A stretch of DNA of 51,011 bases. Origin: Yaniella sp. (GTDB taxonomy: Bacteria; Actinomycetota; Actinomycetes; Actinomycetales; Micrococcaceae). This document shows positions 29,393 through 33,308 of the stretch, one piece after another (the first letter of the stretch is position 1; each line of letters begins with the position of its first letter). A model generated the notes under the pieces. It saw only the letters and a program-made list of their open reading frames with translations. It searched no databases and had not been told where the DNA came from. The stretch spans positions 1-51,011 of the forward strand of contig NZ_JAKDKW010000010.1 of assembly GCF_030453185.1 (NCBI RefSeq), given 5' to 3'. Both the position numbers and the translations under genes were made by a program.

Positions 29393-30526
29393 TCAGAGTC
29401 CTAACGTATCGATCATGGCATCAGCTACCTGGTGTAGATCTGTCAAAAACCCGTCGTGGCCGATGGGCGAATCGATCAGGTGCACCGGAGTGTGAGGCCC
29501 GAAGTCAGCGGCCAATTGGTAGCTCTGTTCTGGGAAATATAGCCTATCCGAGTTGACCGCCACAATGAACGGTGTTGCGGTAATCCCGGAAACAGCAGCG
29601 GCCTGTCCCCCACGTCCTCGACCGACGTCATGCGACATTAAGGCTTCCGTAAGCGCAACATAAGAATTCGCATCAAACCGTACGGCCAGATCTTTGGCTT
29701 TGTAATCCAGATACGACTCGATTTGATACCGGCCGCTTCGCTCAGAAACCGGTGAACTCAGTGGGTCTTCCTCATTCTGGAATTTGCGCCCAAAACGAGC
29801 GTTCAGTTCTGATTCAGAGCGGTAGTTAATATGGGCGATACGACGGGCGATTCCGAGTCCTTGTACGGGAGCGGGGCCGTCATAGTAGTCACCGTTGTTG
29901 AAGTTCGGGTCCAGCCGGATGGCTTCAACCTGTGCTTGAGCAAACGCGATTTGCTCTGCGGTGGAATACCCACCACATGCGATAACACCTACCCCTGCCA
30001 CACGAGCTGGATACATTGCTGCCCATTCAAGTGCACGCCCGCCGCCCATGGAACCGCCTATTACCGCGTGGAACCGTTCGATTCCCAAGATATTGGCGAG
30101 TTTGGCTTCGGCATTGACCGAGTCCCGAATGGTAACAAATGGGAATCGTGCACCATAGGGCTGCTGGTCTTCGTCTAAGGATGAGGGCCCTGTCGAACCG
30201 TAGCAACCACCTATCATGTTGGTGGCGATGACGAACCACTTATCCGTGTCGATAGGTTTACCCGGGCCAACGAGATATTCCCACCAGCCGGGTTCGGGTA
30301 GCTGTGCAGACGAGGCAACGTGGCTATCACCGGTCAAGGCATGCTGAATGAGTACCGCGTTAGTTTTTTCAGTGTTGAGTTTGCCCCATGTTTCATATGC
30401 GACCTCGACCTGCGGCAAATACCCACCGGTTTCAAAATGCAGCTCACCGATAGCTACTGTCTTGAGGGCAGATCCTGCTGCCACATAAGTTGCCGGGTCG
30501 GTCACAGATTCAAGATCCAATGACAT
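29393..30526 (-). CDS. metX: Homoserine O-acetyltransferase
   Basis: 377-aa alpha/beta-hydrolase-fold enzyme that acetylates homoserine from acetyl-CoA, the entry step of direct-sulfhydrylation methionine synthesis. It has nucleophile S159 in GGSMGGGRALEW, HALTGDSHV in the N-terminal core, TNMIGGCYGSTGP, and the terminal His in IGHDGFL. ATG 30526 has AAGGAG upstream. Acetyl versus succinyl specificity is set by few residues, so acetyl is inferred from the metY partner. Second gene of metY-metX-hydrolase, under the SAM-IV riboswitch. Confidence 0.94.
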   Translation of the reverse strand: MSLDLESVTDPATYVAAGSALKTVAIGELHFETGGYLPQVEVAYETWGKLNTEKTNAVLIQHALTGDSHVASSAQLPEPGWWEYLVGPGKPIDTDKWFVIATNMIGGCYGSTGPSSLDEDQQPYGARFPFVTIRDSVNAEAKLANILGIERFHAVIGGSMGGGRALEWAAMYPARVAGVGVIACGGYSTAEQIAFAQAQVEAIRLDPNFNNGDYYDGPAPVQGLGIARRIAHINYRSESELNARFGRKFQNEEDPLSSPVSERSGRYQIESYLDYKAKDLAVRFDANSYVALTEALMSHDVGRGRGGQAAAVSGITATPFIVAVNSDRLYFPEQSYQLAADFGPHTPVHLIDSPIGHDGFLTDLHQVADAMIDTLGL

Positions 30527-30542
30527 GACCTTTCACTCCTTG

Positions 30543-31880
30543 TTAAACAGCTGCAGCGGCGGCAAAGCCGGACTGCAGGTCGTCCAAAATGTCTGTGATA
30601 TCTTCCAGGCCAACCGAAAGTCGTACTAGCCCGGGGTTGACACCCGCGGCAAGCTGTTCTGCTTCGGAGAGTTGAGCGTGGGTGGTGGTGGCAGGATGTA
30701 CAACCAGGGAACGCACATCGCCGAGGTTTGCAACCAGTTTGTGCAATGTCAGAGATTCCGCAAACTTTTGGCCTGCATCCTTGCCACCTGCGATGTTGAA
30801 GGCAACGATGCCGGAGGTCCCGTTTGGCAACAACTGCTGCGCACGGTCGTAATACGGTGAGGATTTCAAACCGGCGTACTGCACGCTTTCGACTTGTGGA
30901 TGCGCCTCGAGCCATTCGGCAACACGCTGAGCGTTCTCCAAATGGCGCTCCATCCGCAGTGACAGCGTCTCTAGCCCGAGGTTCAGTAGGAAGGAGTTGA
31001 AGGGCGAAGCGGAATTACCCAGGTCGCGCAGCAATTGTGTGCGTATGCGAAGGATGTAGGAGAGGTTGGCCCCTAGTGGCCCATTTGGACCAAAATCGGT
31101 GCCGAAAACTACACCGTGGTAGGACTCGTCTGGCTCATTGAACCAAGGGAATTTATCCGGGTTTGCGGTCCAGTCAAAGTTCCCAGAATCAACAATCACT
31201 CCCCCAACCACGGCGGCATGACCACTCAGGTACTTCGTGGTGGAGTGCACAGTGATATCGGCCCCATGCTCGAAGGGACGAAATACCGTCGGTGGGGTCA
31301 ACGTTGAATCGATAATGAGCGGGACCCCAGCGTTGTGTGCCACATCGGATACTGCGCGAACATCGAGTACATCAGCCTTTGGGTTACCCAAGACTTCAGC
31401 AAACACAGCTTTGGTGTTTGGTTTGATGGCATTGCGCCACTCATCCAGGTCTTCTGGATTCTGCACAAAAATAGTCTCAATGCCAAGCCGAGGAAGCGTG
31501 TGTTTAAATAGGTTTTGTGTACCGCCATACAACGACGTAGACACCACGACAGAATCACCCGCGCCAGCAACATTTAGCACACTCAGTGTGGTTGCAGACT
31601 GTCCTGAGGACAGTAGAACTGCACCGACGCCGCCTTCGAGTGCTGCGATTTTGTTTTCAACAGCATCATTGGTGGGGTTGGTGAGTCGCGAGTAGATAGG
31701 ACCCAGCTCTGACAGCCCGAATCTTCCGGCTGCCGTAGCCGTATCTGGAAAGTTAAAACTCGTTGACTGATAAATGGGCAGTTGTGTTGCCCCAAAGTCT
31801 GTGTCTTCGACCATCCCGGAATGAATCTGACGGGTAGTCAATCCCCAGGTGGACTGGTCGGTGATATCACGTTGTGTCAA
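30543..31880 (-). CDS. metY: O-acetylhomoserine aminocarboxypropyltransferase (sulfhydrylase)
   Basis: 445-aa PLP enzyme that makes homocysteine from O-acetylhomoserine and sulfide. The PLP lysine is K216 in HSTTKYLSGHA; SSGQSATTL binds the phosphate, and YSRLTNPTNDAVENKIAALEGG is typical of the Cys/Met-metabolism family. The long (445-aa) form and lack of cystathionine-synthase features favour MetY. It starts with TTG at 31880, AAGGAG nine bases upstream, and that ribosome-binding site is held in a predicted hairpin (31884-31914) below a SAM-IV riboswitch. Expression should fall when SAM is plentiful. Confidence 0.94.
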   Translation of the reverse strand: MTQRDITDQSTWGLTTRQIHSGMVEDTDFGATQLPIYQSTSFNFPDTATAAGRFGLSELGPIYSRLTNPTNDAVENKIAALEGGVGAVLLSSGQSATTLSVLNVAGAGDSVVVSTSLYGGTQNLFKHTLPRLGIETIFVQNPEDLDEWRNAIKPNTKAVFAEVLGNPKADVLDVRAVSDVAHNAGVPLIIDSTLTPPTVFRPFEHGADITVHSTTKYLSGHAAVVGGVIVDSGNFDWTANPDKFPWFNEPDESYHGVVFGTDFGPNGPLGANLSYILRIRTQLLRDLGNSASPFNSFLLNLGLETLSLRMERHLENAQRVAEWLEAHPQVESVQYAGLKSSPYYDRAQQLLPNGTSGIVAFNIAGGKDAGQKFAESLTLHKLVANLGDVRSLVVHPATTTHAQLSEAEQLAAGVNPGLVRLSVGLEDITDILDDLQSGFAAAAAV

Positions 31881-31883
31881 TGC

Positions 31884-31914
31884 AAAGACTCCTTCTGAAT
31901 TTCAAGGGGTCTTT
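31884..31914 (-). promoter_or_regulatory. Hairpin that sequesters the metY ribosome-binding site
   Basis: On the minus strand AAAGACCCCTT (31904-31914) pairs with AAGGAGTCTTT (31884-31894), with one mismatch and a nine-base loop. The second arm holds the AAGGAG Shine-Dalgarno. The first arm can alternatively pair with GGGTCTT (31954-31960) at the 3' end of the riboswitch, giving mutually exclusive structures. Confidence 0.65.
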
Positions 31915-31955
31915 CAACGCTACGTCTACCGCGCAGGTTATATGACGTGCGCGAA

Positions 31956-32067
31956 GACCCGCGCTTGTCCCAATTTGCCATGAGACCTGGTCCTCACCCG
32001 GGGCACCCCACCGCGGAGGAGGGTTGCCGGTCAGTAAGCCGGGGCATTACTACTGACACTCGTGACC
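31956..32067 (-). promoter_or_regulatory. SAM-IV riboswitch
   Basis: Read from 32067 down, the sequence matches the SAM-IV consensus as I recall it: GGTCACGAGTG at the 5' end, GCCCCGGC, CCGGCAACCCTCC, CCGCGGTGGGGTGCC, CCGGGTGAGGACC, and the conserved 3' segment ACAAGCGCGGGTC. SAM-IV aptamers bind S-adenosylmethionine and are known from Actinomycetales upstream of methionine genes. Here it sits 76 bases before metY. No terminator with a T-tract follows, so control is probably translational. Confidence 0.93.
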
Positions 32068-32201
32068 AATACCCACTACTATGCCAGAAAAAGCCTCGAA
32101 TGGCGACTTACCACCGAGCGGCGCCAGACGACTCTCTCACTTTAAGCCGGTAGCAACGAATTGGACGGTTTTGAACCCTGCAAAAGCTGGATTACTCGTT
32201 G

Positions 32202-32207
32202 TAGTGT
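32202..32207 (+). promoter_or_regulatory. Candidate -10 hexamer for the leaderless baeRF gene
   Basis: TAGTGT lies six bases before ATG 32214, and no Shine-Dalgarno is present. It matches TANNNT with leaderless spacing. Confidence 0.4.
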
Positions 32208-32213
32208 TGATGC

Positions 32214-33308
32214 ATGGAACAACTCGGATACTTTGATGACATCACAGCTGATGACTTGAAGGCGATGGCTGCAGCCACAGGCCCGAAGGTCACTATCTAT
32301 CTGCCCACTGCACCTCCGCAACATCAACCGCAAGACACGGCCACACGTGTCAAGTCGCTGGTGAACGAGGCTCGTCGAAAACTCGTCAATGCTGGCGTAC
32401 CCGAATCAGATGCCAAAGACATGATGGCATCCTTTGACGCAATAGCCACCGATGCTCCTTTCCTACGCCAGCAAGGAGAATCCCTTGCGCTATTCGCAGC
32501 GAAAGGACTCAACCTGGTCTACCGCTTGGGGGTCCCGGTCGCCGAATATACTCACGTTGCCGAACATTTCGTACTTCGCCCGATCTCAGAAACTCTAACG
32601 AAATCCCACTCGTTCTATATTCTCGGTGTTTCGCAGAATAAAGTTCGCTTACTCGACGCCACTAAAGATTCCGTCGTTCAACTAGATCTGCAAGACATCG
32701 TTCCTGAATCGTTCGAGGAAGTTACCAACACGGATGATCGCCAGGCGACGCTGCAAAATCGCTCCGTGGGCAGCAATGGCACTATGTTCCATGGCCATGG
32801 CGGCATCGCTGATAGTCAAGATGCCGAAGTATCTCGCTATTTCCACAAGGTCGGCGACTCGCTCGGTGATCTCTTGGGACGTGCTCGTTCCCAGCCGATG
32901 GTCCTGGCTGGTGTCGCAGAAAATGTGACTGCTCTGAAAGCTTCATCCTCCTACCCTGTTGTAGCAGAGGATTTCATCTCAGGTAATCCAGACTCAGTAT
33001 CTAATCGCGAACTCCAGAAGTCTGGTTGGGAAGTTGTTCGGCCCCACTTCGCGGCAAACGATGACGCTGCATTCGGTCGATTCGCAGATGTCTCCGGTAC
33101 GGGCCTTGGCGAAACTCAACCGGATGTGATCCGTGAAGCAGCTGTAGCAGGTCGTATCGATACCCTATTCATCAATCCATCGCTCAACGCCTCCGACGGT
33201 ACCGGCGATGTGAATACGGCAATTCTGCACACCAAACTAAATTCAGGCGATATCGTGATCATCTCTGATGGACGCGTTGAAAACGTTGCCGCACTCATGC
33301 GCTACTAA
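32214..33308 (+). CDS. Bacterial eRF1-related protein (baeRF family; possible Balon-type ribosome hibernation factor)
   Basis: 364-aa soluble protein with the three-part layout of bacterial eRF1-like proteins. The N-terminal region (1-115) contains VTIYLPTAPPQ. The middle region (about 125-245) has FYILGVSQNKVRLLDA, MFHGHGG and a SRYFHKVGDSLGDLLG helix. The C-terminal region (about 245-364) resembles eRF1 domain 3 (PMVLAGVAENV, REAAVAGRIDTLFINP, GDIVIISDG). There is no GGQ tripeptide, so it is not a peptide-release enzyme. Relatives include Balon, which occupies the A site of idle ribosomes; that role is inferred here by family, not shown. Monocistronic, with a probable leaderless start and a strong terminator. 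Confidence 0.78.
   Translation: MEQLGYFDDITADDLKAMAAATGPKVTIYLPTAPPQHQPQDTATRVKSLVNEARRKLVNAGVPESDAKDMMASFDAIATDAPFLRQQGESLALFAAKGLNLVYRLGVPVAEYTHVAEHFVLRPISETLTKSHSFYILGVSQNKVRLLDATKDSVVQLDLQDIVPESFEEVTNTDDRQATLQNRSVGSNGTMFHGHGGIADSQDAEVSRYFHKVGDSLGDLLGRARSQPMVLAGVAENVTALKASSSYPVVAEDFISGNPDSVSNRELQKSGWEVVRPHFAANDDAAFGRFADVSGTGLGETQPDVIREAAVAGRIDTLFINPSLNASDGTGDVNTAILHTKLNSGDIVIISDGRVENVAALMRY

Follow-up and report, generated by a model that had tools for sequence, protein, structure and literature searches.

Strand exchange between pseudoknot tail and Shine-Dalgarno sequence as the proposed expression platform of a SAM-IV riboswitch ahead of metY in Yaniella

Strand exchange at the ribosome-binding site (RBS) is one of the standard ways in which riboswitches act (PMC10907184). 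In the strand-exchange riboswitches of group 3, one switching strand takes part in two exclusive helices, the RBS is hidden in the ligand-bound state and the change proceeds by toehold exchange, the shared bases usually belonging to helix P1 (PMC10907184). The direct-occlusion riboswitches SAM-II, SAM-III and SAM-SAH also close the RBS to translation upon SAM binding, with the RBS located in or beside the aptamer (PMC10907184). Within the Actinobacteria, the translational T-box of ileS relies on sequester and anti-sequester hairpins on the Shine-Dalgarno (SD) sequence, although it senses tRNA and its aptamer is unrelated to SAM-IV (PMC1262725). For SAM-IV itself, a leader preceding O-acetylhomoserine sulfhydrylase has been reported in Mycobacterium avium (PMC3774663), and cryo-EM has described the aptamer, its two pseudoknots and a fold that SAM leaves unchanged (PMC6890682). 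A text search of the cryo-EM paper found neither "expression platform" nor "Shine" (PMC6890682), and the Rfam model of the class (RF00634) reaches only the opening bases of the tail discussed below and leaves out the expression platform. A description of the SAM-IV expression platform was not found in the literature searched, which excluded the original 2007 and 2008 SAM-IV papers; such a description may therefore already have been published.

The window, that is, the whole 51,011-nt stretch of Yaniella sp. DNA analyzed here, contains a match to the SAM-IV covariance model at 32067-31956 on the minus strand, scoring 99.8 bits against a gathering score of 38 and spanning the full model (positions 1-116). 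Helices P1, P2, P3 and P5 are present in the covariance-model alignment, and PK-1, read off the sequence only, joins CCCGG of the P2 loop to the CCGGG that precedes the P1 3' strand. The PK2 loop and tail strands covary among 152 SAM-IV RNAs. The aptamer ends 75 nt before the start of metY, which is followed by metX, in agreement with the earlier note that placed a SAM-IV riboswitch before metY. The locus thus shares with the described class the full model match, the PK-2 topology, the met gene context and the actinobacterial host. Judged by its sequence, the metY leader is a genuine SAM-IV-class riboswitch, which presumably binds SAM. The features of the locus are as follows.

31956 to 32067, minus strand: SAM-IV riboswitch aptamer (Rfam RF00634, 99.8 bits)
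32012 to 32016, minus strand: PK2 5' strand CCGCG, in the P3 loop, complementary to 31963-31959
31959 to 31963, minus strand: PK2 3' strand CGCGG, with a topology like that of the SAM-IV cryo-EM structure (PMC6890682)
31954 to 31960, minus strand: tail, or anti-anti-SD strand, GGGTCTT, invariant in nine genomes of the genus and covarying with the arm across genera and families
31948 to 31958, minus strand: 5' strand of a competing hairpin, GUCUUCGCGCA, in the minimum-free-energy fold of the mature leader, able to coexist with PK2 and a closed SD
31944 to 31952, minus strand: 5' strand of a helix nested in the ON form, from the fold of the pre-SD transcript, partner 31926-31917
31924 to 31935, minus strand: 3' strand of the competing hairpin, partner of 31958-31948
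31917 to 31926, minus strand: 3' strand of the nested ON-form helix, partner of 31952-31944
31904 to 31914, minus strand: switching arm (anti-SD), AAAGACCCCTT, forming either 7 bp with the tail or 10 bp and one mismatch with the SD side
31884 to 31894, minus strand: SD side, AAGGAGTCTTT, containing AAGGAG and complementary to the arm
31889 to 31894, minus strand: SD AAGGAG, 8 nt ahead of the TTG start
30543 to 31880, minus strand: metY, O-acetylhomoserine sulfhydrylase, the regulated gene, with its TTG start at 31880 (TIGR01326, 596.9 bits, above cut-off)
29393 to 30526, minus strand: metX, homoserine O-acetyltransferase, the gene after metY (NF001209, 440.9 bits, above cut-off)

The genome from which the window derives is related to Yaniella and Enteractinococcus and holds four SAM-IV copies. 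The others (L012, L021 and L028, on contigs C72, C34 and C103, with relatives in the genus among L010-L030) precede open reading frames (ORFs) that by eye resemble an LLM-type flavin-dependent monooxygenase, an acyl-CoA-dehydrogenase-like protein and a flavin reductase. These copies have other PK2 strands (UACAG with UUGUA, UAUGG with CCGUA) and other platforms. The metY start codon is TTG in eight of nine genomes of the genus and GTG in one, while metY in other Micrococcaceae leaders starts nearly always with ATG. At the edge of the window, positions 1-55 of the minus strand hold a truncated tRNA gene whose anticodon loop resembles tRNA-Asn (GTT).

Three short strands make up the platform. 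The arm (31914-31904) pairs with the SD side (31894-31884) through 10 base pairs and one C.A mismatch, and its portion AAGACCC (31913-31907) forms seven pairs with the tail GGGTCTT (31960-31954); the coordinates bear out both pairings as the earlier note had drawn them. Since the model match reaches 31956, the first five tail bases fall within the SAM-IV model, and the first two (31960-31959) are the last two of PK2. Full PK2 and a full tail:arm helix consequently cannot coexist, because they have these two bases in common. The mutually exclusive arrangement of the three strands, another claim of the note, is upheld, and both helices covary across genera and families. The proposed overlap between tail and aptamer 3' segment exists, but with the paired aptamer it amounts to only 2 nt, in PK2, rather than all 7 nt, and for this reason we infer that SAM acts by holding PK2, the two-nucleotide overlap working as a toehold lock. 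The window platform has both helices of a strand-exchange riboswitch, one hiding the SD (arm:SD) and one freeing it (tail:arm), with the shared bases in the PK2 3' strand instead of P1 and, unlike in SAM-II, SAM-III and SAM-SAH, with a separate arm. No intrinsic terminator was found in 31500-32300, which agrees with the note's statement that a poly-T terminator is absent; a rho-independent terminator was named there as a possible refutation.

We propose, with a probability of about 0.82, that the SAM-IV riboswitch shuts metY, and probably metX too, at translation initiation via strand exchange. In the absence of SAM, the tail (31960-31954), located just 3' of PK2, would pair with the arm (31913-31907) once the latter is transcribed, and this helix would keep the arm off the SD, which is made later, so that metY would be translated. 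When SAM is bound, the aptamer would hold PK2, which shares bases 31960-31959 with the start of the tail; with the GG toehold then unavailable, tail:arm pairing could not begin, and the free arm would pair with the SD and close it. The predicted direction is thus OFF with SAM, and the predicted order of events is co-transcriptional. Since the SAM-IV aptamer keeps PK2 without SAM in the cryo-EM work (PMC6890682), SAM would lock this pseudoknot, not create it.

Comparison with relatives bears directly on this proposal. SAM-IV is present in all 120 Micrococcaceae genomes searched, and 80 metY leaders were among those fetched, of which 78, from 27 genera, were used, the remaining two (genus g7) having no arm. 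In the nine leaders of the genus, all three strands are kept and loop lengths vary; the sole arm change, an A-to-G substitution in L005, leaves both pairings possible as G.U. Swapping tails between genera weakened the tail:arm helix (0 of 20,000 permutations as good, with z from -5 to -9 according to tail length); permuting at the level of genera lessens the influence of shared ancestry and base composition on these values, although some remains. In the genus of the window, the native tail ranks 1 of 27, and in a few genera (g21, g25) the own tail pairs no better than foreign tails. Placing the arm by best pairing was rejected as circular, with odd choices in L127, L161, L171, L193 and L195. 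When the arm was placed instead by its C-run only, independently of pairing, own tails were still better (4 of 20,000 permutations as good). Pair types vary at tail position 4 (U-A, C-G, A-U, U-G) and at position 5 (C-G, U-A, A-U, G-C). The equivalent swap for the arm:SD helix also gave 0 of 20,000, and the base adjoining the SD core covaries (19 of 5,000 permutations). The compensatory changes that the earlier note proposed to look for in related species, their lack counting against it, thus occur in both helices. In two leaders of genus g7 (L199, L200) and one of family f3 (L240), SAM-IV precedes metY with the PK2 tail nearly touching the SD and no arm; from this layout they are probably a direct-occlusion version, and those of g7 resemble the direct-occlusion riboswitches mentioned above.

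In this genus, the folding calculations favor the tail:arm helix only until the SD is made. The platform (31876-31963) is more stable than its shuffles (z = -3.3, 0 of 200 as good), as is, by itself, the SD hairpin (z = -2.4, 6 of 200), whose closed form has an energy of -9.1 kcal/mol. When the transcript of the window leader ends before the SD, its most stable structure is the tail:arm form (-25.5 kcal/mol), with a penalty of about 7 kcal/mol for holding the PK2 strand; over the 27 genera this penalty is about 6.4 kcal/mol. The energy difference alone was used; the drop in tail:arm probability under blocked PK2 was set aside, since blocking takes two of the seven tail bases out of play and so produces part of the drop by itself. 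Once the window leader is complete, the closed form is ahead by about 5 kcal/mol (-34.2 vs -29.0) even with PK2 free, and at equilibrium the tail:arm probability is near 0. Folding with and without the aptamer constraint, the check proposed in the earlier note, gave the effect of about 7 kcal/mol in the pre-SD transcript and an SD accessibility of 0.185 in the mature leader with PK2 free or blocked. The corresponding equilibrium difference over the 27 genera was small (mean 0.03, p = 0.08), and in several other genera (g2, g4, g15, g31) the open form is the stable one. Given these small changes in accessibility, a purely equilibrium switch lacks support from the energy model. As the calculation leaves the mature leader of this genus mostly closed regardless of PK2, the ON state would be reached co-transcriptionally or with the help of the ribosome. 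Switching in this genus is probably co-transcriptional, the tail:arm helix being the predicted best fold only until the SD is transcribed. The competing hairpin, whose two strands are nearly invariant in the genus (nine genomes), uses the tail and allows both PK2 and a closed SD, and it would strengthen the OFF state.

The same pairings were found in a wider set of 45 SAM-IV leaders from 16 other actinobacterial families. Here, an eight-base stretch that opens with the same two bases of PK2 finds a partner a short way downstream, mostly through six to eight contiguous pairs (0 of 20,000 in the tail:arm swap test), and the examples differ in sequence: GGAUCCCU with AGGGGUCC, GGAACACC with GGUGUUCC, and GGGACGC with GCGUCCC. 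This downstream partner shows complementarity to the SD as well, or to a tail-like word immediately ahead of it, as in GUGGGU with ACCCAC (L209) and CCGGGU with ACCCGG (L222), and the arm:SD swap test gave 0 of 20,000 in 41 of the 45 leaders. Because these pairings recur across families, the arrangement looks like the usual SAM-IV platform and not one specific to the window, and the strand-choice wiring appears common to most of the class. It is conceivable, if somewhat less than an even bet, that the whole class has one undescribed platform, in which the SD and an 8-nt tail that starts from the final two bases of PK2 compete for one arm and SAM controls translation by locking the pseudoknot toehold.

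Outside the Micrococcaceae, the SD controlled by the platform often belongs to a very short ORF ahead of the sulfur gene (L206, L208, L210, L212, L215, L224, L238 (f21); L201, L203, L226, L228, L231, L247, L250). The encoded peptides, such as VSKRMR*, MCCCRMQQVTGA*, MCIRRMCCR* and MHCCCTSIYT*, are rich in Arg-Met or Cys codons, which suggests a possible coupling of SAM-IV to a leader peptide. In Actinobacteria, cysteine leader peptides are known on their own (PMC1262725).

Other explanations of the locus must be weighed against strand exchange at translation initiation. SAM-bound leaders might stop transcription, either at the closed SD hairpin, which is stable at -9.1 kcal/mol, or through pausing and Rho, which can gain access to RNA in leaders that are not translated. 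This is unlikely, as the region around the leader (31500-32300) lacks a terminator-like site, the conserved partner of the arm in 27 genera and 16 families is the SD itself, and in genus g7 (L199, L200) the PK2 tail directly adjoins the SD and a hairpin is absent. An equally improbable reading is that the aptamer acts while the tail:arm helix goes unused in this genus, with a closed SD hairpin as the default state and SAM acting either by drawing the folded PK2 domain near the ribosome site or by altering hairpin dynamics. The near-zero tail:arm probability at equilibrium in the mature leader and the strong competing hairpin (31958-31948 with 31935-31924) would fit this reading, but it sits poorly with a GGGTCTT that is invariant in nine genomes, with an arm change in L005 that keeps both pairings, with tail:arm as the best pre-SD fold and with the first rank of the native tail.

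That the complementarities are mere GC-rich words, SD-like and anti-SD-like, with no switch behind them, is very improbable. With GG(G) at the start of every tail and CC(C) in every arm, a degree of pairing is unavoidable, as reflected in the swapped-partner mean of -8.6 kcal/mol for 7-nt tails. However, native partners exceed swapped ones beyond this core in two taxon sets and in both helices, and slid registers pair less well than the native one.

An aptamer structure that is the same with and without SAM does not in itself explain how genes are switched, and the covarying three-strand platform offers a concrete mechanism for it. Strand exchange through the PK2 tail names the bases to mutate, and it would apply across many actinobacterial families.
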